Origin: Flavobacterium johnsoniae UW101
GTDB lineage: Bacteria > Bacteroidota > Bacteroidia > Flavobacteriales > Flavobacteriaceae
Assembly: GCF_000016645.1 (NCBI RefSeq)
Contig: NC_009441.1
Location: 5,332,001-5,396,000, forward strand
Direction: 5' to 3'
DNA length: 64,000 bases
Made by a program: the position numbers and the translations under genes. Position 1 is the stretch's first letter. Each line of letters begins with the position of its first letter. This document shows, one piece after another, positions 13,938-45,648 of the stretch. A model generated the notes under the pieces. It was given only the letters and a program-made list of their open reading frames with translations. It did not search any database and was not told the origin of the DNA.

Positions 13938-15401
13938 TTAGTTGATTGTAAGGACATTTGTTGAAAGATCTAATGTAATAGTATGGTTGCCTGCCTGTGC
14001 TGCGCTTACCACCCATTTATTATCGTCACCATCACATTTATCACGTTTAGTAAAATTTGTATTAGTAATCGCCTGGTTTGCTGATACTGGTGTAATTTCA
14101 GTCCCCTCACACCAATTGGTATTGTATTTTGTAAATTTAAATTCACCTGCAGTCAAAGGTCCACTGTAAGTATAGACACTTCCATTTTTAGTCATCGGAA
14201 GCAATGAGCCCATATTCCATCCATTTGGTGTAGCACTGCCAATCAGATAAACTTCAACAGGGACAATCTTAATAACGTTTGTACTTATATCAAGTGTAAT
14301 TTTGTATCTGCCTGCAGTCTGTGCTGTAACCTGCCATTTATTATCTACATCACAGCCGGAATTCTGTGCAACGCCTGTTTCGGTCAAACCTTGATTATCC
14401 ACCAATGGTCTGTACCATTCTCCGCACCAGCCTCCTTTTGTGCCAGCCATTATTTTAAAGTTTCCAGGCGTTAAATTAGCTTCGTATGTGAAAATAAAAG
14501 GATTATCTGTAACCGTAAAGGCTTCTGGCGTATCGACATTCCAGCCGCTCGGACTTGCATCACCTACAATCCATAATTGTGTAAAAGCTGGAGATTCCTG
14601 TTCTTCAATTACAATAGTTAATTTTAGCAAGTTCACTGTAATTTTGTAAAGTCCTGCTTTGGTAATTTCCCATTGCAGGTCAGAACCGCTTCCGCCAGTA
14701 TTATGGACTATCTTGCCTGTATCAGCAGCATCTTTTGTATAAAAGTCCTGGCACCAGCAAGAATCCGTATTTACTGCAAATTTGAATTTACCTTTACTTA
14801 ACTGGCCAGAATATACAAAAACAACAGGATTAGCTGTCTGGGCAGTCAGAGCAAAAGCCTTTGTAATATCCCAACCATTTGGTGATGCATCACCGACCAT
14901 GAACAGTTCGGTTGATAACGGCTGATAGGGAGTTAAATTAAAATCGATTATTGAAGTTTGAGGCGTCACACTTTTATCACCAAAAGTTGCTGTAATCCTT
15001 GCCTGCAAAACAATCACTTTACCAGGCTCTCCGTTAAAAGTTGTGAGCAGTATTGAATTTAATGTTGCCACATTAATATCAAAGTCGTATCTGTTTTTTC
15101 CAAAATCATATTCAACTGCATTAACGAAATTATTTTCTTTCTTGTCAATTTCCAGTTTATATGAAATCGAAGCACCTGTTCCCTTGTTATCACCTGTACT
15201 CCATTTAAAACTGAATTTTTGCTGGAACATGCTTTGATCCAAAACCATGTCAGTACTGCTCAACGTAAGCTTTAACACATCAGCACTAAAATTTTTAGCC
15301 TGAAGATCATCATTGCTGCAGCTTGACAAAGCTGCAGATAAAAACAACAAGAAGACAATCACGTATCTTGTCCAAACTATATAATTTCTATTTTTTTTCA
15401 T
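13938..15401 (-). CDS. SusE/SusF-like surface glycan-binding lipoprotein
   Basis: A 487-residue lipoprotein (lipobox AALSSC near residue 27) with an N-terminal SusE immunoglobulin-like domain (about 35-160) and three SusE/F-type carbohydrate-binding modules. Each begins with a variant of VGDASPNGW or IGSATPNGW (about 168, 278 and 387) and carries a WC motif (SCWCQDFY, GGWCGEWY, TNWCEGTE). It would hold dextran-like glucan at the cell surface next to SusCD. It follows SusD by 12 bases and is translationally close to GH66. The family is certain; the ligand is inferred from the enzymes of the locus. Confidence 0.9.
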   Translation of the reverse strand: MKKNRNYIVWTRYVIVFLLFLSAALSSCSNDDLQAKNFSADVLKLTLSSTDMVLDQSMFQQKFSFKWSTGDNKGTGASISYKLEIDKKENNFVNAVEYDFGKNRYDFDINVATLNSILLTTFNGEPGKVIVLQARITATFGDKSVTPQTSIIDFNLTPYQPLSTELFMVGDASPNGWDITKAFALTAQTANPVVFVYSGQLSKGKFKFAVNTDSCWCQDFYTKDAADTGKIVHNTGGSGSDLQWEITKAGLYKITVNLLKLTIVIEEQESPAFTQLWIVGDASPSGWNVDTPEAFTVTDNPFIFTYEANLTPGNFKIMAGTKGGWCGEWYRPLVDNQGLTETGVAQNSGCDVDNKWQVTAQTAGRYKITLDISTNVIKIVPVEVYLIGSATPNGWNMGSLLPMTKNGSVYTYSGPLTAGEFKFTKYNTNWCEGTEITPVSANQAITNTNFTKRDKCDGDDNKWVVSAAQAGNHTITLDLSTNVLTIN

Positions 15402-35119: not shown

Positions 35120-35848
35120 CTACTTTCTATTTTTAAATTTCCGTTTCAATAAAATTAAGTTTAGTTTTATATTATCATAAATTAGCCCCCCTAGTAATAC
35201 AAAACCACCAAGAAATAAAACCTGCAGTCCTATTCTTGAATAAAAAACACCTCCTATGATGCCCCCAATAAAAAAAAAGCTGATAATTGTAATCCGCAAC
35301 TTAATTGAAGAAAAAAGTTCGGCTTTCTTATTTTGTTCCCAGTAAAAGAAAAGTTGAGATAGCTCAATACCTAAATCGGTAAACAAGCCCGTTAAGTGGG
35401 TAGTCCGGACAATAGAATTTGAGATCCTAGTAACAAATGAATTTTGCAATCCCATTGCATAAAGCAATGTAAAAGAAATTAGATTGGGAAAGGTGGCAAT
35501 TAGATCATCTCCAAAGGTGGCAATAAAAAATAAAATTCCAATCTCAATAGAAGCTGGAATGAGATGTACAATATTTTCTCTTCTGCGGACTACTAATTCC
35601 ATCAGAAAGCTTGATGAGAAAGACCCCAAGAAAAAGAAAAATATATAACCGAAGTAGATAAATGCTGTGAAGAAATCAAGTTTAAAAATTTCATCTACAA
35701 AAAACGCAAAATGTCCGGTGACATTTGTTGTGAGGGTTTGAACTGAAAAAAAACCTGCAACATTAACCATTCCTGCAACAAACGAAAGTAGAGAAGCAAT
35801 TTTTAGATTATGTTTTAAGTTTCTTTTTTTTCCCAGATGTTTGAACAT
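35120..35848 (-). CDS. YoaK/DUF1275-family membrane protein
   Basis: A 242-residue integral membrane protein with six hydrophobic segments and the DUF1275 landmarks LLSFVAGMVNVAGFFSVQTL, NVTGHFAFF, GLQNSFVTRISNSIVRTTHL and TGLFTDLGIEL. This family is widespread but its function is unknown. It is on the same strand as the Crp/Fnr gene upstream (187-base gap) and could be part of that unit. I saw no FNR-like palindrome in front of it. Confidence 0.85.
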   Translation of the reverse strand: MFKHLGKKRNLKHNLKIASLLSFVAGMVNVAGFFSVQTLTTNVTGHFAFFVDEIFKLDFFTAFIYFGYIFFFFLGSFSSSFLMELVVRRRENIVHLIPASIEIGILFFIATFGDDLIATFPNLISFTLLYAMGLQNSFVTRISNSIVRTTHLTGLFTDLGIELSQLFFYWEQNKKAELFSSIKLRITIISFFFIGGIIGGVFYSRIGLQVLFLGGFVLLGGLIYDNIKLNLILLKRKFKNRK

Positions 35849-36035: not shown

Positions 36036-36719
36036 TCAATAAAAATTGGCTATATGGGTTAGTTGTTGAAAATTCATTAATTGAATTTTACGTCCCTCCA
36101 TCCAAATAAGATTTTCACTTTTAAAATCATGTAGTACCCTTGCCAGGGTTTCATTTACAGTGCCTACCATATTGGCTAAATCTCCCCTTGAAAGTGTAAT
36201 AAAAACATCTTTTGGGTCATCATTTATTTTATATTTATCATGTAGAATCAATAAACTAAGGGCTACTCGCTCTCTTACGGTTCGCTGCGATAAAACGGCC
36301 ATCAAATTTGCCATCACACTAAACTCATAACTGAGGCATTTTAAAAGCAATCGTGAAAATACTACAGAATTATTAAGGACATTAAAAAAATCGTCTTTTG
36401 GTATAAATGAAATAACTGAATTTTCAATAACCACGGCGGTATCTCCATATGCCTGCTCACTTAGTATGGCTGTATAACCAAAAAACTCTCCTGAATTGTA
36501 GATATAAATAATTTGTTCCCTTCCTTCATTATCAACCTTGTATTTTTTGACTTTACCGGTTTGAATATAAAAAATACCTGTAGGCAATGTCCCCTCAGTA
36601 AATATTGTCTGGTTTTTAACATATTTTTTACTTTGCATTACCTTTTCAAGCAGATCCTTGTCACATTGAGGCAACTCGTTTAAAACATACTGATTATTGA
36701 AGATAAATTTTGAAATCAT
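36036..36719 (-). CDS. Crp/Fnr-family regulator, candidate controller of the FNR-box regulon
   Basis: A 227-residue regulator from the ATG at 36719 (MISKFIFNN). An in-frame ATG at 36731 lies within a TAACTTTG promoter element and is less likely. A cyclic-nucleotide-binding-type beta-roll spans about 18-125 (IFYIQTGKVKKYKV, YIYNSGEFFGYTAIL). The C-terminal winged helix includes TLSRGDLANMVGTVNETLAR, with the recognition helix VNETLARVLHDF close to the E-xx-SR type of Fnr/Crp. It lacks the N-terminal cysteine cluster of E. coli Fnr, so an iron-sulfur sensor is not supported. A perfect TTGATTTAAATCAA palindrome lies 45 bases upstream, so it may control itself and the divergent operon. Confidence 0.88.
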   Translation of the reverse strand: MISKFIFNNQYVLNELPQCDKDLLEKVMQSKKYVKNQTIFTEGTLPTGIFYIQTGKVKKYKVDNEGREQIIYIYNSGEFFGYTAILSEQAYGDTAVVIENSVISFIPKDDFFNVLNNSVVFSRLLLKCLSYEFSVMANLMAVLSQRTVRERVALSLLILHDKYKINDDPKDVFITLSRGDLANMVGTVNETLARVLHDFKSENLIWMEGRKIQLMNFQQLTHIANFY

Positions 36720-36728
36720 AGCTAATTT

Positions 36729-36736
36729 CAAAGTTA
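36729..36736 (-). promoter_or_regulatory. Candidate -7 element (TAACTTTG) of the Crp/Fnr gene
   Basis: On the minus strand TAACTTTG lies just 9 bases before the ATG at 36719, which implies a nearly leaderless transcript. The FNR-type palindrome is centred about 35 bases before it, an overlap with the -33 region that would suit repression or class II activation. Confidence 0.5.
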
Positions 36737-36764
36737 CAATATTTTTTCCATGTCTTTTTAAAAC

Positions 36765-36778
36765 TTGATTTAAATCAA
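36765..36778. promoter_or_regulatory. FNR-type binding site (TTGATTTAAATCAA)
   Basis: A perfect match to the classic FNR box TTGATnnnnATCAA, embedded in a longer perfect palindrome (about 36758-36785) between the Crp/Fnr gene and the divergent pckA-like/gcv operon. The same 14 bases recur at 42916. The centre is 52 bases upstream of the TACTTTTG element of the plus-strand operon. Confidence 0.8.
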
Positions 36779-36823
36779 GTTTTAAATACCATTTTAATCA
36801 ACTAAATCGATTTCAAATCTGTC

Positions 36824-36831
36824 TACTTTTG
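36824..36831 (+). promoter_or_regulatory. Candidate -7 element (TACTTTTG) of the pckA-like/gcv operon
   Basis: TACTTTTG matches TAnnTTTG and lies 38 bases before the ATG at 36869. The same octamer at the same distance from the FNR box precedes the methyltransferase operon at 42.8 kb. Confidence 0.6.
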
Positions 36832-36868
36832 TACAATTTAAAATAAAATTTTATCTCAATTGAGAATC

Positions 36869-37420
36869 ATGAAACATATAGCACAACTGAAAGGTATTGG
36901 TATTAATGCCTCTAAAAAAATCCATTGGAATTTATCTGAACTTATATTGGTCACTGAAGCAGGGATAACTGAACCCCAAACCACTTTTTCTGCATGCTTT
37001 GGCAAACCCTTTTTACCGCTGCATCCGGCAAAATATGCAGAATTACTGGGAAGCAAACTAAAAGAAAATAATGTAAATGTCTGGCTTATCAACACTGGCT
37101 GGTCCGGCGGAGCGTATGGGGTTGGAGAGCGTATAAAGCTTTCTTACACCAGGGCAATGATTACCGCTGTATTGGAAAATAAACTGGAGAAAACAGATTT
37201 TACAGAGCACTCTGTATTTGGATTACAAATGCCTGTTTCCTGCCCCGGTGTTCCTTCGAAAATCTTAAACCCGAAAAATACCTGGAATGATAAAACAGTT
37301 TATGATACAATGGCACAGAATCTTGCAGATCAGTTTGTAGCGAATTTTAAAACTTTTGAAAATTTTGCCAATGAAGAAATTCGCAGCGGAGCACCTGTTA
37401 CCCTTCAATATAATCTATAA
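36869..37420 (+). CDS. Internally deleted ATP-type phosphoenolpyruvate carboxykinase
   Basis: A 183-residue frame starting at MKHIAQLKGIG. The first ~30 residues (up to IHWNLSELILVTEA) look like the N-terminus of ATP-dependent PckA; from GITEPQTTFSACFGKPFLPL onward it is a good match to the last third (LLGSKLKENNVNVWLINTGW, GAYGVGERIKLSYTRAMI, PVSCPGVPSKILNPKNTW). Complete enzymes have about 530 residues, so roughly 350 are missing in frame, including the kinase P-loop and metal ligands. It cannot catalyse the normal reaction. Either it is a relic at the head of an operon or it has a new, perhaps structural or regulatory, role; the clean frame and conserved C-terminus leave this open. It is not simply truncated at one end. 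Confidence 0.8.
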   Translation: MKHIAQLKGIGINASKKIHWNLSELILVTEAGITEPQTTFSACFGKPFLPLHPAKYAELLGSKLKENNVNVWLINTGWSGGAYGVGERIKLSYTRAMITAVLENKLEKTDFTEHSVFGLQMPVSCPGVPSKILNPKNTWNDKTVYDTMAQNLADQFVANFKTFENFANEEIRSGAPVTLQYNL

Positions 37421-37431
37421 CTAAGCTAAAA

Positions 37432-37647
37432 TTGGATAGTCCTATCGTCACTAAATCCATACTGCAGTGTCCAGAATGCTGCTCTAAATATACAGAGAGA
37501 ATACTGCTCAAAGGTAAAACATTAAGCAGCAGGTGCGTGTTCTGCAGTGCAGTTTTTGAAATAACCGAGCCACATCAATGCTGCATCTATTGTGCATACG
37601 GGAATGTTCCGTGTCCGGAAAAACAAAACAAAATTAAAAAACAATAA
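37432..37647 (+). CDS. GDCCVxC-type small cysteine-rich protein
   Basis: A 71-residue protein beginning with a TTG codon 12 bases after the preceding stop; no ATG is available before the first cysteine pair. It has CPECC (13-17), CVFC (35-38), then HQCCIYCAYGNVPCPEKQ, which matches the GDCCVxC domain (normally GDCCVFCSYGSVPCPP, some members being selenoproteins) with HQ in place of GD. Nine cysteines suggest a zinc- or other metal-binding role. It sits between the PckA-like gene and gcvH, three bases before the latter, so it is co-transcribed. The family has been linked to metals and redox, without a known function. Confidence 0.75.
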   Translation: MDSPIVTKSILQCPECCSKYTERILLKGKTLSSRCVFCSAVFEITEPHQCCIYCAYGNVPCPEKQNKIKKQ

Positions 37648-37650
37648 AAA

Positions 37651-38031
37651 ATGGAAATACCTAAAAACCTTTTATACACACAAGACCACGAATGGGTAAA
37701 AATCGAAAATGATACAGCCTATATTGGAATTACTGATTTTGCACAGCACGAATTAGGTGATATTGTCTATGTTGAAATAGAAACCCTCGGGGAGAAATTA
37801 AGCCAGCATGAGGTATTTGGTACAGTTGAAGCTGTAAAAACGGTATCTGACCTTTTCCTTCCGCTTACAGGGGAAATTCTGGAATTGAATCCTAAATTAG
37901 AAACAAATCCCGAATTGGTCAATTCCGATCCTTATGATGAGGGCTGGATGATTAAAATAAAAATTGAAAACAATACAGAAATTGATGCATTACTGAAATC
38001 CGATACCTACGCATCCTTAATAGGTTTATGA
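37651..38031 (+). CDS. gcvH: Glycine cleavage system H protein
   Basis: A 126-residue lipoyl carrier with YTQDHEWVKIE, the YIGITDFAQHELGDIVYVE core and the lipoylation site GTVEAVKTVSD with Lys63 in place. Length and motifs are those of a functional H protein, which carries the aminomethyl group between P, T and L proteins on a lipoyl arm. GcvT begins two bases after its stop. No gcvP is present in the window, so either P protein is encoded elsewhere or this copy serves another role. Confidence 0.93.
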   Translation: MEIPKNLLYTQDHEWVKIENDTAYIGITDFAQHELGDIVYVEIETLGEKLSQHEVFGTVEAVKTVSDLFLPLTGEILELNPKLETNPELVNSDPYDEGWMIKIKIENNTEIDALLKSDTYASLIGL

Positions 38032-38032
38032 T

Positions 38033-39142
38033 ATGGAAAATCAAAGCGTAAATATCAAAAAAACAGCCCTTAATGCAATTCATCATGACCTTGGCGGGAA
38101 AATGACCCCATTTGCCGGTTATGAAATGCCGGTTCAATATGCAGGTGTAAATCATGAACATGAAACCGTTAGAAATGCTGTAGGTGTTTTTGATGTTTCC
38201 CACATGGGGGAGATTCTTATACAGGGAAAAGATGCCCTGGCACTCATTCAGAAAATAAGTTCAAACGATGCCTCAAAGCTTTTTCCTGGAAAAATACAAT
38301 ACAGCTGTATGCCAAATAAAACTGGCGGTATTGTAGATGATCTGCTGATATATATGATGAGTGAAAAGGATTATTTACTGGTGGTAAATGCTTCAAATAT
38401 CCAAAAAGACTGGGACTGGATAAGTACTATAGCCCTTGATTATTTAGATCTTACCATAACAAACCTTTCCGATATAATTTCCCTACTGGCTGTTCAAGGC
38501 CCTTTGGCCGCAAAATCCCTGCAAAAATTGACCAGTATCAATTTGAATGAGATGAAATATTATACGTTTGAAATAGGCGAATTTGCAGGTATTCCAAATG
38601 CTATAGTATCTGCCACCGGATATACCGGGGCAGGCGGATTTGAAATATATGTACAGAATAAGTATGCAGAACTATTATGGGATGCCATTTTCGAGGCAGG
38701 AAAAGAGTATAACATTGAGCCTATTGGACTCGCTGCCAGGGATACACTGCGATTGGAAATGGGATACTGTTTGTATGGCAATGATATCAATGATACGACT
38801 TCGCCATTAGAAGCCGGACTGGAATGGATTACTAAATTCACTAAAGAATTTATTCAAAGTGATTCTCTCAAAATTCAAAAAGAAAATGGAGTAACAAGGA
38901 AATTAGTAGGATTTGAAATGACTGGCAAAGGCATTCCCCGTCATGCTTACGAAATTTGGGATGAAAACCAGCAAATTATAGGCACCGTTACCTCGGGTAC
39001 CATGTCGCCTACTTTAAAAAAGGCTGTAGGAATGGGGTATGTTACTGCTGAAAAATCAAATATTGGCAGTGAGATTTTTATCAATATCAGAAACAAACCA
39101 GTTAAGGCAATTATTGTTCAGACTCCTTTTGTTCAAATCTAA
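38033..39142 (+). CDS. gcvT: Glycine cleavage system T protein (aminomethyltransferase)
   Basis: A full-length (369 residues) T protein: FAGYEMPVQYAGVNHEHETV and VFDVSHMGEI at the N-terminus, GGIVDDLLIYMMSEKDYLLV then NASNIQKDWDWI with the conserved aspartate, GYTGAGGFEIYV, LRLEMGYCLYGNDI and the C-terminal domain (GTVTSGTMSPTLKKAVGMGY). It transfers the aminomethyl carbon from GcvH to tetrahydrofolate. The C-terminal folate-domain contacts look normal, so catalysis is plausible. It is translationally close to gcvH and followed by a lysine-less GcvH paralogue. Confidence 0.93.
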   Translation: MENQSVNIKKTALNAIHHDLGGKMTPFAGYEMPVQYAGVNHEHETVRNAVGVFDVSHMGEILIQGKDALALIQKISSNDASKLFPGKIQYSCMPNKTGGIVDDLLIYMMSEKDYLLVVNASNIQKDWDWISTIALDYLDLTITNLSDIISLLAVQGPLAAKSLQKLTSINLNEMKYYTFEIGEFAGIPNAIVSATGYTGAGGFEIYVQNKYAELLWDAIFEAGKEYNIEPIGLAARDTLRLEMGYCLYGNDINDTTSPLEAGLEWITKFTKEFIQSDSLKIQKENGVTRKLVGFEMTGKGIPRHAYEIWDENQQIIGTVTSGTMSPTLKKAVGMGYVTAEKSNIGSEIFINIRNKPVKAIIVQTPFVQI

Positions 39143-39153
39143 ATCTTCGAGAT

Positions 39154-39525
39154 ATGTTTATTCCTAAATCGCTATATTATACTAAAAATCACTTGTGGTT
39201 AAGACAAGTTGGATTATACGATTATTTTGTCGGTATTACTGATTTTGCCCAAAAAGAAATTGGAGAAATCAGTTTAATTGAACTCGAATTTACCGGTGAA
39301 CACATGAAAAAAGAAATGCAATGGGGAAAAATCTATGGACTTAATCAAACTTTTTCCCTCCTTGCCCCTATTGATTGCAAGGTTATGGCCACGAACGTCA
39401 TTTTGGATACCAACCCTTCAAGTATCAATCGAGATCCATACAATAATTGGTTCTTAAGAGTTTCAACAGTTGTCAGTAATTATGGATTATTAACTAATGA
39501 AGAATATATAGAACTTATACAATGA
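39154..39525 (+). CDS. GcvH-like protein lacking the lipoyl lysine
   Basis: A 123-residue GcvH fold: YYTKNHLWLRQ, FVGITDFAQKEIGEISLIEL and INRDPYNNWFLRVS align along the whole length with the GcvH at 37651. The lipoyl-site segment reads WGKIYGLNQTFSLL, so Asn64 replaces the lipoylated lysine and the ESVK-type context is lost. It therefore cannot carry a lipoyl arm. It could be a decoy, a structural partner of the real GcvH or a regulatory subunit. Its stop overlaps the methyltransferase start by four bases (ATGA), which indicates translational coupling. Confidence 0.85.
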   Translation: MFIPKSLYYTKNHLWLRQVGLYDYFVGITDFAQKEIGEISLIELEFTGEHMKKEMQWGKIYGLNQTFSLLAPIDCKVMATNVILDTNPSSINRDPYNNWFLRVSTVVSNYGLLTNEEYIELIQ

Positions 39526-40118
39526 TATTTAAATTCCTTAAATTAAAAATAGCTGTTGAGGATAGCACCTTTAATGAACTATATCCAACCAGGATAAAAA
39601 GACTTGCAGCCCGTCATTGGACTCCGGTTGCAGTAGCTAAATTTGCAGCTGAATATTTGGTTGATAAGCCGTATAAAAAAGTATTGGATATAGGCTCGGG
39701 AGCTGGAAAATTTTGCCTGGTAGGAGCAGCTTCTACAACAGGCAGGTTTTATGGCGTGGAGCAAAGAGCATCTCTCATTAAGTTATCAAAAAAAATTGCC
39801 GACAAGCACGATATAACCAACGTAGAATTTATTCATTCCAACATCAATGAAATTTCCTTCTCTGCTTATGAAGCCTTTTATTTTTATAATCCCTTTTATG
39901 AAAATATAGATTCTTCATGCTCAATTGACAAAACAATACTTCCGGAGAGAGAACTGTTTTATTCCTATTCCAGATATGTAAAAGAACAGCTCGAGCAAAC
40001 ACCAATCGGAACGCGTTTAGTTACTTATTGGAGTAACTGGGAAGAAATTCCAGATAGTTTTGAATTACAATATGCTGCTTGTGGAGGCGTATTGGTCTTT
40101 TGGCAGAAAGCATCTTAA
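39522..40118 (+). CDS. Class I SAM-dependent methyltransferase, copy 1
   Basis: A 198-residue Rossmann-type methyltransferase with motif I VLDIGSGAGKFCLVGAA (about 54-70), motif II FYGVEQRASLI with an acidic residue to bind SAM ribose, and VEFIHSNINEISF. It starts with FNELYPTRIKRLAARHWTPV, a segment shared with the copy at 42196; the two proteins agree over their full lengths. The substrate is unknown; small-molecule or quinone-type acceptors are possible. It ends the gcv operon and is coupled to the lysine-less GcvH gene. Confidence 0.85.
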   Translation: MIFKFLKLKIAVEDSTFNELYPTRIKRLAARHWTPVAVAKFAAEYLVDKPYKKVLDIGSGAGKFCLVGAASTTGRFYGVEQRASLIKLSKKIADKHDITNVEFIHSNINEISFSAYEAFYFYNPFYENIDSSCSIDKTILPERELFYSYSRYVKEQLEQTPIGTRLVTYWSNWEEIPDSFELQYAACGGVLVFWQKAS

Positions 40119-40265
40119 AGAAGTAGACCTTTCAGGATTAAAACCAATGTAATACTGAGGTAAAAGTCTAATTCCTTTACAAAATATTTTATTTATTACA
40201 CCATAATCCTTTAGGTTACTAGAAAAACTAAAGAATATCCCCAATGTTCTGATGGCTAATTTTTA

Positions 40266-40296
40266 AGAGGGAAGAGTAATAAAGACTCTCCCTTTT
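40266..40296 (+). terminator. Possible bidirectional terminator between convergent operons
   Basis: GGGAAGAGT pairs with ACTCTCCC around AATAAAG with one bulged base and is followed by TTTT. It lies about 150 bases after the methyltransferase stop and 20 bases before the end of the opposing DUF983 gene, so it could serve both. Confidence 0.45.
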
Positions 40297-40317
40297 CTAA
40301 GTTAGGTGTTTTTTTTA

Positions 40318-40728
40318 CTAATTCTCTTTTATAGCTGTTTTTGGATCATAGGAGATAAACATATTTATGTAAATATTTCTGGATAATCTCAATAATACTG
40401 GAAATAAAATAATCAGTACTGCAATAATTGCAATAAAGGATGTTTTTATACTCGATTCAAAGATAACATATGAAATAATGAAAGTTGCAATTCCTACCCC
40501 AACATTCAATCCATAACTTACATACATTGCGCCAAAAAAGAAAGAAGGCTCTATTTGGTACCTTAGCCCACAATGGCTGCATTTCTCGTGCATTTTTAAA
40601 ACCGAACCTAAATGCAATAGATTTTTATCCAAATACATGTTCTCATTCTGGCATTTAGGACAGTTCCCTGTTAAAATGCTATTTAATTTAGATCCTTTTT
40701 TCATCTGCTGATAATCGATTTTAAGCAC
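40318..40728 (-). CDS. DUF983 zinc-ribbon membrane protein, copy 1
   Basis: A 136-residue protein with a rubredoxin-like cysteine pair CPKC (23-26) and CSHCG (50-54), FFFGAMYVSYGLN and two membrane spans (about 72-95 and 98-115). It belongs to DUF983, a family often found near respiratory oxidase genes in Alphaproteobacteria and Flavobacteria, function unknown. It is related to the gene at 41023. A 294-base gap, without a visible promoter, separates it from that copy. Confidence 0.85.
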   Translation of the reverse strand: MLKIDYQQMKKGSKLNSILTGNCPKCQNENMYLDKNLLHLGSVLKMHEKCSHCGLRYQIEPSFFFGAMYVSYGLNVGVGIATFIISYVIFESSIKTSFIAIIAVLIILFPVLLRLSRNIYINMFISYDPKTAIKEN

Positions 40729-41022
40729 AAGTCCATGAGCTGTGGTTTAGTTTAAAAATTATGTATATACCAAATAAACCTGCAAGGCTTATCTTAAAAG
40801 ACGAAGGAATTTTAAGCAGAACCATAAAATCCTCCCTTTAATTTAACTGACCAATATATATTTCCTTACTAACTGTTCTATTACTTTTTTTAAGCATCTC
40901 TAACTCTGCCTGCTATCCTTTTTTTTAATAGGTTTTCCTAATTAAAAAGATACTTTTATTTCTGAATAATATTTTTGAATTCTTTCCTGTAATATATAAT
41001 AGTTTACAATTTTTGCGTGAAA

Positions 41023-41481
41023 TTATTCTTTCTTGTGCCATCCAAAATATTTAAAAGTTAAATGAAGTAAAATAGCCCTGGATATTCGCATTATGGGGAT
41101 TTGTAATAAAAAACATAAAATCAGGAAAATCGGCAGTATTACCTTTAAAGAAATTCCATAATATTCATTTAAATATAACCCGAAAAATAGCAGAGGTATA
41201 AAAACAATCAGTACTATTGGGAAACCAATCCATAAGGCAGTTGAATAAAACTCAGGTTCTATCCTAAAATCCTGATTACATTTTTTGCACTTTTCGTGCA
41301 TTTTAAGAAATCTGGTCATGACAAACAGTCCCGGATTAATAAATAAGTCCCCCTTATAGCATCTGGGACATTTAAGTTTAAGCATATAGTATGACTGTAT
41401 TTTAGAGTTCATTTTCATTTTATTTATGCTGCTCAGGCTAAATTCAGAGCATTTAAGCAAAATTTGTTTGCAGCCAAACAA
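41023..41481 (-). CDS. DUF983 zinc-ribbon membrane protein, copy 2
   Basis: A 152-residue protein with CPRC (about 39-42) and CKKCNQDFRIEPEFY, followed by two membrane helices (about 85-110 and 114-132). The same architecture as the copy at 40318 marks it as DUF983. The N-terminal ~21 residues are not typical; ATG codons at 41418 and 41412 would give a protein of standard length and may be the true starts. It lies 13 bases after the PhnA stop if the longest start is used, consistent with an operon. Confidence 0.82.
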   Translation of the reverse strand: MFGCKQILLKCSEFSLSSINKMKMNSKIQSYYMLKLKCPRCYKGDLFINPGLFVMTRFLKMHEKCKKCNQDFRIEPEFYSTALWIGFPIVLIVFIPLLFFGLYLNEYYGISLKVILPIFLILCFLLQIPIMRISRAILLHLTFKYFGWHKKE

Positions 41482-41494
41482 CTCTGACAGTAAT

Positions 41495-42073
41495 TTATTT
41501 CTTTACAAATTTGGTTAAGATCACTATTGCCTGTCCGTCAATTTTCCCTTCGATCTGCTCATGGTTATCATGGACCAAACGGATGTTTCGAACTGCTGTG
41601 CCGACTTTCGCATTTAAAGACGAACCTTTTACATCCAAATCTTTGACAAGGGTGACCGTATCGCCATTTTGCAGAATATTGCCATTGCTATCTTTGTGGA
41701 AATTAATGGTCCCGTCATCGGTATGATCTCCAGTTGCTTTTGCCCATTCCAGATTTTCTTCATCTAAATACATCATATCCAGTGCATCAGCAGCCCAGCT
41801 TTCATTGCGAAACCGATTAAGCAGACGCCATGAAACCACCTGTACAGCCGATACTTCACTCCACATTGATGTCGATAGAAAATTTTTCCAGAAAACATCA
41901 TTTAACTCCTCTTTTTTTTCAATTTGGTTAAGGCATTTCTCATTGATTAAAATCCAACCGTCTGCCCCTTTATTTTGAGCCGGTGGAACTTCATAGGCAA
42001 TTAGATTTTTGTTGATACCACTTAATTCGCATACATTTCCGCTTCTCTTTTTTAGCAATTCCTCTAATTTCAT
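41495..42073 (-). CDS. phnA: PhnA-domain protein
   Basis: A 192-residue protein with the N-terminal LLKKRSGNVCELSG segment seen in the long form of PhnA, where a single CELSG motif replaces the zinc ribbon, and a C-terminal SH3-like PhnA domain (DSNGNILQNGDTVTLVKDL, KGSSLNAKVGTAVRNIRLV). Despite the name it is not needed for phosphonate breakdown in most bacteria and its role is unsettled. It lies between the methyltransferase and DUF983 genes on the minus strand and probably belongs to the FNR-box operon starting at 42792. Confidence 0.88.
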   Translation of the reverse strand: MKLEELLKKRSGNVCELSGINKNLIAYEVPPAQNKGADGWILINEKCLNQIEKKEELNDVFWKNFLSTSMWSEVSAVQVVSWRLLNRFRNESWAADALDMMYLDEENLEWAKATGDHTDDGTINFHKDSNGNILQNGDTVTLVKDLDVKGSSLNAKVGTAVRNIRLVHDNHEQIEGKIDGQAIVILTKFVKK

Positions 42074-42195
42074 TTTATTTTATTTAGAAATAAACTTTAA
42101 AGACTTCTCAGAACATATTCTAAATTGATATATTCTTCACTGTCCATATTTTAATTAATTTTATTGAGTAATGTTTATATATTTAATGCTCCAAT

Positions 42196-42792
42196 CTAAG
42201 CCGTTTTTCTCCAGAAGATTAATACCCCGCTGTGCGAAATAGCTTCTAAGCAGAAACTTTTTGGAACCTCTCTGCAATTGCTCCAGTAGGTGACCAGTTT
42301 TGTGCCAATGGGAGTTTTATACAGCTGGTCTTTAAGATAACCGGTATATAGATGATATAGTTCCCCACTTGGAGCACTTGATTTGTCAATACGGGCTGTC
42401 AGATCTATATTTTCCTGAAATGAATTAAAAAAATAGAAAGCTTCATAATCCAAAAAAGATATCTCCATAATATTTGAGTGTATGAATTCTGCATTATCAA
42501 TCTTATATTTTTTGGCTATTTTCCGCGATAATTTTATAAGCGATTTCCTTTGCTCCACCCCATAAAAAATTCCATTCGTTAAAGCTGCCCCCACAAGGCA
42601 GAATTTTCCAGCCCCCGAGCCTATATCCAATACTTTTTTATCAGGTTTGTCCACTAAAAAATCAGCTGCTTTTCTGGCTATTTTTACAGGGGTCCAGTGA
42701 CGGGGGGCCAGCTTCTTTATCCTAATAGGGTACAGTTCGTTAAACTCATTATCATCAATAGATTTGTTTTGCTTGAGATGTTCAAAAATCAT
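42196..42792 (-). CDS. Class I SAM-dependent methyltransferase, copy 2
   Basis: A 198-residue methyltransferase with KVLDIGSGAGKFCLVGAALT (motif I), FYGVEQRKSLIKL and NAEFIHSNIMEISF. It matches the copy at 39522 in every segment, including FNELYP, ARHWTPV, EAFYFFN and LVTYWSN, with the same length; clearly a duplication. It is the first gene of the convergent operon (methyltransferase, PhnA, DUF983), preceded by the second FNR box and a TACTTTTG element. The substrate is unknown. Confidence 0.85.
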   Translation of the reverse strand: MIFEHLKQNKSIDDNEFNELYPIRIKKLAPRHWTPVKIARKAADFLVDKPDKKVLDIGSGAGKFCLVGAALTNGIFYGVEQRKSLIKLSRKIAKKYKIDNAEFIHSNIMEISFLDYEAFYFFNSFQENIDLTARIDKSSAPSGELYHLYTGYLKDQLYKTPIGTKLVTYWSNCREVPKSFCLEAISHSGVLIFWRKTA

Positions 42793-42863
42793 TTTATAAA
42801 TACTTTTGCATTTGCTGCAGTTGGCTTAATTTTCCTTACTAAATAGAATAATTTAACAAATGG

Positions 42864-42871
42864 CAAAAGTA
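42864..42871 (-). promoter_or_regulatory. Candidate -7 element (TACTTTTG) of the methyltransferase operon
   Basis: On the minus strand TACTTTTG lies 72 bases before the methyltransferase start and about 52 bases downstream of the FNR box centre, the same arrangement as at 36.8 kb. Confidence 0.6.
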
Positions 42872-42915
42872 TAGAGAGTTCGAATATATTTAACTGATTA
42901 ATATCTTTCTAAAAC

Positions 42916-42929
42916 TTGATTTAAATCAA
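42916..42929. promoter_or_regulatory. FNR-type binding site (TTGATTTAAATCAA), second copy
   Basis: The identical 14-base palindrome found at 36765. On the plus strand both sites are preceded by CTTTNTAAAAC, so identity extends for about 25 bases. It is upstream of the methyltransferase-PhnA-DUF983 genes. Confidence 0.8.
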
Positions 42930-43027: not shown

Positions 43028-43483
43028 TCAATGCAGCCCCATTAATGCCGGCCGACAGTAAGTCCCCAGAAATTCAGCACTGTATGCTTTCAAAACATCA
43101 ATCTGGGTTAGATAATCAGTCTGTTTGACTTTCTTAACTTTTTGTATGGCTGCTGCAAATTCATCGCTGTCAACCGGTTTTAGAAGATAATCCAATGCGC
43201 CATACTTGATCGCTTTTATAGCAAAATGATTATAAGCTGTAATAAAAATGATAGGACACGAAACCTGCTCTAATTGATTCAATATATCGAAAGCCGTACC
43301 ATCTGTCAGCTAAATATCCATCAAAATCAAATCAAGTTCTGTATTTTTTATAATTTGCAACGACTCTGCTACTGAGCCTGTCTTTGCTGCTAATTTTAAA
43401 GATTCTTGTTGCGAAACTAACCACTGCAGTTCTTTACTTATTGCTGGCTCGTCTTCAATAATTAAGGTTCGTATTTTGTTCAT
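43028..43483 (-). pseudogene. LytTR-type response regulator, nonsense-mutated and truncated
   Basis: Reading from the ATG at 43483, MNKIRTLIIEDEPAISKELQ, DLILMDI, a TAG stop at 43310-43312 where glutamine (CAG) is expected, then LTDGTAFDILNQLEQVSCPI, IFITAYNHFAIKAIKYGALD and YLLKPVDSDEF complete a receiver domain. The phospho-acceptor Asp sits in LILMDI. The frame ends at 43028 soon after the receiver, without the LytTR DNA-binding domain. Two independent defects show a dead gene; no histidine kinase is next to it. Confidence 0.85.
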
Positions 43484-45061: not shown

Positions 45062-45648
45062 TGGACTTGCAACAAAAAGTCGGACAAATTTTCTAAGACC
45101 TATGCTACACTTTCTATTTTATAAAATTCTAGTTCCATTTCTTTAGGTGTTTTATATCCCAAAGAAGAATGCAGACGTTTTCTATTATACCATACTTCTA
45201 TATATTCAAAGACTGCTAATTTAGCTTCTTCAATGGTTGTGAATTTATGCTGATAGATAAGTTCTGCTTTAAGGGTCTTGAAAAAACTTTCAGCTACAGC
45301 ATTATCCCAACAATTAGCTTTTCTACTCATACTTTGAGTGATTAAAGTATTTTTATTAATCAATTTTCTGAATTCTATCGAAGCATATTGTATTCCTCTA
45401 TCTGAATGAAAAAGTAAAGATTCTGTTATTTCTCTTTTTGATACTGCCATTTTCCAAGCTGGAATAATCGTTTGATCGGTATACATTCGTGTGCTTAATG
45501 ACCATCCTATAACCTGCCTGTCATATAAATCAATAATAGTAGTAAGATATAACCAGCCGGCAGCTGTTCTTATATAGGTTATATCAGACACCCAAACCTC
45601 ATTAAGTGATTTTGGTGTAAAATTTCTATTGAGATGATTACTGCACAC
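45062..45648 (-). mobile_element. IS3-family (IS150-type) element, right part with terminal repeat
   Basis: The plus-strand end TGGACTTGCAACAAAAAGTC (45062-45081, continuing GGACAAATTTT) has the form of an IS150-group terminal inverted repeat (TG...CAAAAAGTTGGACA). The transposase frame adjoins it. The left end with orfA is missing: similarity stops near 45650, where a different gene tail begins. Confidence 0.75.
45100..45648 (-). pseudogene. IS3-family transposase OrfB, C-terminal two thirds
   Basis: A 182-residue frame with the rve integrase core: WVSDITYIRTAAGWLYLTTI (first Asp), LLFHSDRGIQYAS (second Asp) and NAVAESFFKTLKAELIY (Glu), ending RKRLHSSLGYKTPKEMELE. The DDE triad is complete, but the N-terminal ~100 residues and OrfA are gone, so it cannot transpose by itself. 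It is not the missing half of the element at 4599 as far as can be judged. Confidence 0.85.

Follow-up and report, generated by a model that had tools for sequence, protein, structure and literature searches.

Here, we analysed a gene cluster of Flavobacterium johnsoniae UW101 that combines a gene for a Crp/Fnr-family regulator, two exact copies of one palindrome and two genes for small class I S-adenosylmethionine (SAM)-dependent methyltransferases, MT1 and MT2. The genome of the strain is one contig of 6,096,872 bases, and the cluster lies in a 64,000-nt stretch of it, the window, whose positions are used below unless another sequence is named (+ and − denote the strands). The regulator gene (36036–36731, −; an ATG at 36719 may be its start) stands at one end of the cluster. 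It is separated by the palindrome TTGATTTAAATCAA (36765–36778) and a −7 promoter box TACTTTTG (36824–36831, +) from an operon on the + strand, which consists of a pckA remnant (36860–37420), a gene for a small GDCCVxC-domain protein (37432–37647), gcvH for a glycine cleavage H-protein in which the lipoyl lysine is seen (37651–38031; TIGR00527 above cut-off), gcvT for an aminomethyltransferase (38033–39142; TIGR00528 above cut-off), a second H-protein gene, gcvH2, with asparagine at the position of the lipoyl lysine (39154–39525), and the gene for MT1 (39522–40118), whose start and the gcvH2 stop share 4 nt (ATGA). The convergent operon on the − strand is preceded by the second copy of the palindrome (42916–42929) and a further TACTTTTG box (42864–42871, −) and comprises the genes for MT2 (42196–42792), a PhnA/YjdM-domain protein (41495–42073; PF03831, E 4.4e-29) and two DUF983 membrane proteins (PF06170), a (41023–41481) and b (40318–40728).

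A preliminary description of this DNA had named these genes, and all of them were found in their places with agreeing Pfam and NCBIfam assignments, three of which are marginal: the PhnA protein lies above the Pfam cut-off, yet below that of NCBIfam phnA (72.1 vs 80.2), the GDCCVxC protein falls just short of the NF041374 cut-off (38.6 bits vs 40), and the methyltransferase exceeds the cut-off only of general Pfam methyltransferase models and PCMT. The twin methyltransferases are genuine, MT1 and MT2 being 65% identical. With PF00027 (cyclic nucleoside monophosphate (cNMP)-binding-like) and PF13545 (Crp helix-turn-helix) both above cut-off, the regulator belongs to the Crp/Fnr superfamily.

Palindrome and promoter geometry

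As the preliminary description had it, the regulator gene at one end is accompanied by an identical palindrome at both operons; the exact sequence TTGATTTAAATCAA occurs only twice in the whole genome, at 36765 and 42916. With at most one mismatch, 25 sites were found genome-wide compared to 9 for the reversed pattern, and with at most two mismatches there was no enrichment within the window (3 observed, 2.56 expected). The weight of the palindrome thus lies in its exactness, its position, its fixed distance to the −7 box and its conservation, and not in enrichment within the window. Promoters of F. johnsoniae carry the −7 element TAnnTTTG with its first T at −12, as stated in PMC6847099. The two boxes of the window lie 45 nt (36824) and 44 nt (42864) past their palindromes.

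This distance recurs in relatives from several families. Loci are counted as distinct ones (L010/L207, L017/L210 and L018/L117 are duplicates), and the first promoter set of 28 tested, 27 of them distinct, covered the window, other Flavobacterium, Chryseobacterium, a locus from a further genus of the same family (L115) and an unclassified one (L019). TAnnTTTG was found 44–45 nt from the palindrome in 19 of the 27; letter-shuffled controls (500 shuffles of the 28 promoters) gave a mean of 0.16 and a maximum of 3. The element is missing at this distance in L115 and L019. A second set, mostly Sphingobacteriales, was drawn from 33 scanned crp genes (Sphingobacteriales and others), 20 of which have the core TGAT-N4-ATCA nearby, mostly as CTGAT-N4-ATCAG; three had been seen with the site before. 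Here, 12 of the 20 further promoters carry TAnnTTTG at 44–45 nt (shuffle mean 0.036, maximum 1). Among 52 distinct FNR-like genome sites examined in the window and 53 other stretches (one of the two source lists contributing 50 of its 54 sites), the two of the window are alone in having TAnnTTTG at 43–46 nt.

The regulator gene itself keeps the site: among 24 distinct Crp genes with 50% identity or more, the window included, 23 have a site 29–71 nt off that agrees in no fewer than 8 of the 10 arm positions, and in the exception, L122, crp is displaced but pckA still has the site. On the crp side, TAnnTTTG lies 21–28 nt from the palindrome in 13 of the 24 cases, which is consistent with autoregulation by the regulator. 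In locus L002, MT2 has the same palindrome upstream of it and, as in the window, 124 nt away. A search for TTGAYTTAAATCAA in 18 methyltransferase-bearing genomes returned 14 distinct sites in 10 genomes, and nine of the 14 lie directly upstream of cluster genes (G970 judged by distance only). The sites of L201, L202 and L203 were rejected as targets since they lie inside reading frames, as were the exact sites of L204, where the frame of another regulator ends, and of L205, before an unrelated gene. In G004, the set is divided between two loci and the exact site is kept at each.

Class I sites of CRP/FNR activators are centred at −61.5. The predicted centre of the palindrome, near −63.5 or −64.5 from the predicted transcription start, would be close to this position. 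Taken together, the cluster is a conserved local arrangement that resembles a regulon, has a fixed promoter geometry and joins regulator gene, palindrome and small SAM methyltransferase. Both operons have the same site and the same promoter geometry, which also speaks for the common control proposed in the preliminary description.

Losses in the window and fuller relatives

Two relatives, L001 (Flavobacterium sp. Root186) and L004 (F. denitrificans), have a longer operon in the order pckA, GDCCVxC gene, gcvH, gcvT, gcvH2, methyltransferase, acyltransferase, gcvP and thiolase, with two DUF983 genes and icd on the facing strand. Window positions 40163–40235 match 9021–9097 of L001 (83%) and positions 40223–40317 match 14581–14677 (96%), the two matching flanks overlapping at a scar at 40223–40235. 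Hence, the window lacks some 5.5 kb that in L001 contain the acyltransferase gene, gcvP and the thiolase gene. Since the gene order is common to L001 and L004 and pieces of gcvP remain in L002, we infer a loss in the window and not a gain in L001. The preliminary description had noted the missing GcvP as a feature of the set; its absence from the window stands, but it appears to be a loss at the scar and not a design.

The deleted PckA described there is real as well. An in-frame deletion of 1047 nt (349 codons) with a 3-nt CAC microhomology and a junction near 36953–36958 has fused approximately residues 1–33 to 381–535, so that about residues 34–380 with the ATP-binding P-loop are gone. The ratio of nonsynonymous to synonymous substitution rates (dN/dS; NG86 against L001 and L002, for MT1 against L001 only, for MT2 and PhnA against L002 only) is 0.12–0.135 for the remnant and 0.137 for a full PckA control; as these values are equal, recent loss and retained function are not separable by them. 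The idea that the remnant is a conserved short protein was rejected: a length-limited protein search returned pieces of PckA, and the seven best-aligned proteins do not have the internal deletion of the window copy, the relatives having full-length PckA or other losses. Further relatives are eroded too, with most of gcvP gone in L002, a pckA stub of 29 residues in L003 and a crp stub of 31 residues in G004.

Such erosion might mean that the locus is a decaying genomic island without present function in the strain, its apparent conservation reflecting recent arrival. Two large deletions in the window, the many partial copies and a patchy presence, the methyltransferase being found (at E 1e-20) in 3 of 150 genomes of the genus, fit this explanation. 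However, every intact window gene tested is under purifying selection (dN/dS 0.04–0.39; MT1 0.08), the promoter geometry is preserved at both window promoters, and the operon that holds MT2 and PhnA shows no damage and is common to the window and L002. We thus regard a functionless island as unlikely.

Outside the two operons, the gene for a DUF1275 (YoaK-like) membrane protein (35120–35848, −; PF06912, E 4.9e-33) lies next to the regulator gene, and DUF1275 recurs as a neighbour of regulator or methyltransferase in other genomes. A truncated response-regulator receiver frame at 43028–43282, beside the second promoter, looks by eye like a broken LytTR-type regulator, and an IS3-type transposase orfB frame (45100–45648, by eye) lies about 2 kb outside the cluster.

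Second enzyme copies and their distribution

The gene that follows the methyltransferase in the fuller relatives has its best matches among solved structures in 7u7h (E 2.6e-173), the cysteate acyl-ACP transferase SulA, and 28eh (E 8.2e-169), a cysteate-C-fatty acyltransferase, compared to E 1e-69 for serine palmitoyltransferase. An identity as Kbl (glycine C-acetyltransferase) was rejected, as the cysteate acyltransferase structures match far better, and NCBIfam returned no family above cut-off for this paralogue. Cysteate acyltransferase catalyses the first step of sulfonolipid synthesis. The operon type is a second paralogue, absent from the window and 62% identical to the best match of F. 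johnsoniae itself (genome position 2894177); a pattern search found the FAKS motif of the pyridoxal-phosphate lysine in 14 of 16 copies. By sequence, the paralogue is thus akin to SulA among the alpha-oxoamine synthases, with a predicted cysteate acyltransferase activity. Fjoh_2419 closely resembles SulA, and its deletion was reported to abolish sulfonolipid in F. johnsoniae (PMC9304779).

The same holds for further enzymes. The operon PckA is 63% identical to its match elsewhere in the F. johnsoniae genome, and the P-loop was found by motif search in 19 of 20 operon PckA copies of relatives; the operon-type GcvP has a single match in this genome, at 461280, with 61% identity. The icd of the Sphingobacteriales clusters is of the eukaryote type (TIGR00127, tested in L263, with similar frames in L266, L273 and L303), that of L115 in the Flavobacterium family of the prokaryote type (TIGR00183). 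As these two families are barely alike and occur in different lineages, one function was recruited twice, as if selected. Beyond the core, the units duplicate housekeeping enzymes, with a further copy of PckA, GcvH, GcvT, GcvP, cysteate fatty acyltransferase, isocitrate dehydrogenase and thiolase. The one-carbon or redox module of the preliminary description is not supported, since the fuller sets also include PckA, isocitrate dehydrogenase, thiolase and the paralogue of the cysteate fatty acyltransferase, and the absence of GcvP is accounted for by the deletion.

For PckA, a tree with sequences of both orders placed 20 of 20 operon copies on a single branch (support 100/100) against 27 housekeeping rows, among which Sphingobacteriales were not represented. 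All 20 operon pckA genes, but none of 28 housekeeping ones, have cluster genes within 1.5 kb, a contrast and not an independent test, as most operon loci had been found through the cluster. An independent PckA search in 120 relatives yielded three operon-type places only (the window, G004 and G196), all inside the cluster.

At E 1e-20, the methyltransferase was found in 12 of 395 genomes at the level of the order, 10 of 395 of the phylum, 31 of 118 Chryseobacterium genomes (some copies broken) and 74 of 400 Sphingobacteriales. Co-occurrence of at least four of the genes, set beforehand as a test of the preliminary description, was found in Flavobacterium, Chryseobacterium and Sphingobacteriales genomes. 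A sample of 40 Sphingobacteriales methyltransferase loci from 37 genomes was chosen before their context was known (two are without a methyltransferase frame by script); within 5.5 kb of the methyltransferase we counted the regulator in 15, DUF1275 in 12, the acyltransferase (at least 68% identity) in 7, PckA in 6, GcvH in 4 and DUF983 in 3. L260 and L285, which belong to one genome, together hold Crp, two methyltransferases, DUF983, acyltransferase, PckA, GcvH, GcvT and GcvP. A literature search, which reached few subscription papers, found no description of this cluster.

Other neighbours recur as well. A SulP-type anion transporter adjoins or lies near the methyltransferase in L124, L129, L115, L257 and others, including six of the 40 Sphingobacteriales loci, a seventh (L271) being only 25% identical; the L124 copy scores highest with DauA, below cut-off, and lies above the cut-off of a sulfate permease model. 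Two small proteins of 113 and 78 amino acids (L265, 11062–11403 and 11529–11765), for which NCBIfam gave no match, recur beside the cluster in 7 and 10 loci.

Signal, methyltransferase and lysine-less GcvH2

The preliminary description proposed low oxygen as the signal, and the locus might accordingly be read as an FNR-type one-carbon or redox module, in which oxygen loss activates the regulator and GcvH and GcvT work with the housekeeping GcvP. The regulator shares the cNMP-type and Crp-type helix-turn-helix domains with FNR and the putative operator TTGAT-N4-ATCAA near the class I position, the lipoyl lysine of the first GcvH is kept, GcvT is intact and a housekeeping GcvP exists. However, FNR-type Fe-S oxygen sensing is unsupported, because no cysteine is conserved among 32 regulator sequences (best column 5 of 32, three loci present twice) as would be needed for a 4Fe-4S cluster, and the NCBIfam Fnr model gave 89.8 bits, below its cut-off of 228. 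Unlike FNR, the regulator has a dedicated local regulon with TAnnTTTG-type promoters; PckA, icd, thiolase and an enzyme of lipid synthesis are part of the set, and GcvP was lost here and is not absent by design. Such a module therefore appears quite improbable to us; the Fe-S route falls, while a low-oxygen signal could still arrive by another route. The regulator gene has a dN/dS of 0.054–0.070. A copper-type P-type ATPase near the Crp/methyltransferase cluster of L128 (5063–7294; family tested in L128 only), whose protein cluster recurs in 9 loci altogether, might hint at the signal. L202 contains another Crp/Fnr protein, 29% identical to the window regulator, with an N-terminal Cys-x2-Cys and beside a metal-ATPase-like gene (by eye).

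For the methyltransferase, all NCBIfam matches are below cut-off, and no named identity could be kept as Foldseek and VIA matches scatter among methyltransferases that act on RNA, proteins and small molecules. Its nearest known counterparts are the small seven-strand N-methyltransferases (aKMT, bacterial DOT1L, TrmN, Trm11), from which the window enzyme differs in lying below the cut-off of every specific curated family. At E 0.05, PF08123 (DOT1) was found in 23 of 38 members, the window copy not among them, and the fold ties with RNA methyltransferases. Models of rRNA methyltransferases matched some members at the same threshold (NpmA 22 of 38, GidB 26 of 38), which would fit a self-protection cassette, in which inhibitor-resistant second copies of essential enzymes are combined with a methyltransferase shielding a target such as rRNA; the second copies of housekeeping enzymes, 61–63% identical to these in the three tested, fit as well. 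However, the Pfam matches are weak, a toxin or biosynthetic cluster was not noticed beside the listed loci, although no dedicated search was made, and a single inhibitor of all these enzymes is not known to us, so that we consider this explanation very unlikely. Split or partial methyltransferase frames were seen in Chryseobacterium G920, G937 and G952 and in the second copies of G925 and G948, suggesting repeated loss or possibly sequencing error.

The H-protein without its lipoyl lysine, reported in the preliminary description, is genuine. GcvH2 has the H-protein fold but reaches only 72.5 bits with TIGR00527 (cut-off 115.85), and the lipoyl position holds Asn in 25 of 27 sequences, Glu in 2 and Lys in 0, whereas a pattern search found the lysine in 17 of 17 cluster GcvH proteins. 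Its dN/dS is 0.21–0.24. The gene overlaps that of the methyltransferase in 24 of 25 distinct adjacent pairs, by exactly 4 nt in 21. GcvH-like lipoyl carriers such as GcvH-L and LbpA retain the lysine and differ in both respects from GcvH2. Compared to the glycine cleavage system, whose GcvH and GcvT are intact in the window and whose GcvP is present in L001, L004 and L285, the window set differs by the lost GcvP, the extra lysine-less GcvH and the admixed unrelated enzymes. Since GcvH2 is without lysine family-wide and its gene overlaps with that of the methyltransferase, it is probably a partner of this enzyme. A more far-reaching idea, which we put forward as a doubtful speculation, is that the non-lipoylatable GcvH2 docks a protein N-methyltransferase on glycine-cleavage or other regulon enzymes, so that the cell would change between housekeeping and backup enzymes by a post-translational switch under Crp control. 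An additional H-protein-like frame of 139 amino acids in the Bacteroidetes assembly of L019 (8403–8822), without lipoyl lysine by eye, lies between GcvH2 and methyltransferase.

We consider it probable, though well short of certain, that the window holds a decayed copy of a conserved Bacteroidota Crp/Fnr-family regulon of autoregulated backup isozymes, with the regulator and the small class I methyltransferase as its core. A signal not read through an FNR-type Fe-S cluster would act on the regulator, which is predicted to bind about 63.5–64.5 nt upstream of the transcription start and may activate the units and its own gene; the activated units would then replace or top up housekeeping enzymes during a stress. 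The methyltransferase might be an N-methyltransferase with a protein target, and GcvH2, encoded on the same message with an overlapping start, might serve as its adaptor or as a decoy H-protein, or else be its substrate.

Several points weigh against such a backup regulon, beside the limits of the PckA comparisons given above. Operon loci were mostly found via GcvH2 or the methyltransferase, so that counts of their co-occurrence lack independence. In the first promoter set 8 of 27 and in the second 8 of 20 have no TAnnTTTG at the fixed distance, the exact TTGAYTTAAATCAA is absent from 8 of the 18 methyltransferase-bearing genomes, and Sphingobacterium and several Flavobacterium and Chryseobacterium loci have the methyltransferase without regulator or site. 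No close GcvH2 orthologues were seen in the Sphingobacteriales clusters. Lysine-less H-proteins do occur there in L285 (11551–11964, Arg) and L295 (6123–6536, Gln; residues by eye), which counts in favour of the regulon, but they are slightly nearer to the first GcvH and apparently separate from GcvH2. Sulfur-sparing isozymes were rejected as a rationale, the cysteine plus methionine content of operon and housekeeping copies being 4.71 and 4.53 percent for GcvP, 2.80 and 3.29 percent for PckA and 4.55 and 4.53 percent for the acyltransferase. Parts of the set have disappeared from many relatives, and several Chryseobacterium carry a broken methyltransferase, so that selection on the set may be weak.

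If the backup regulon is real, many Bacteroidota would possess additional enzymes of central-carbon, one-carbon and sulfonolipid metabolism that are switched as one set, with an unassigned methyltransferase at its centre. The lysine-less GcvH poses the question of what role an H-protein can have without lipoate, and the recruitment of two isocitrate dehydrogenase families points towards a physiological demand. With its two promoters, one local regulator and an exact putative operator, the locus would offer a direct test system in a genetically tractable genus.

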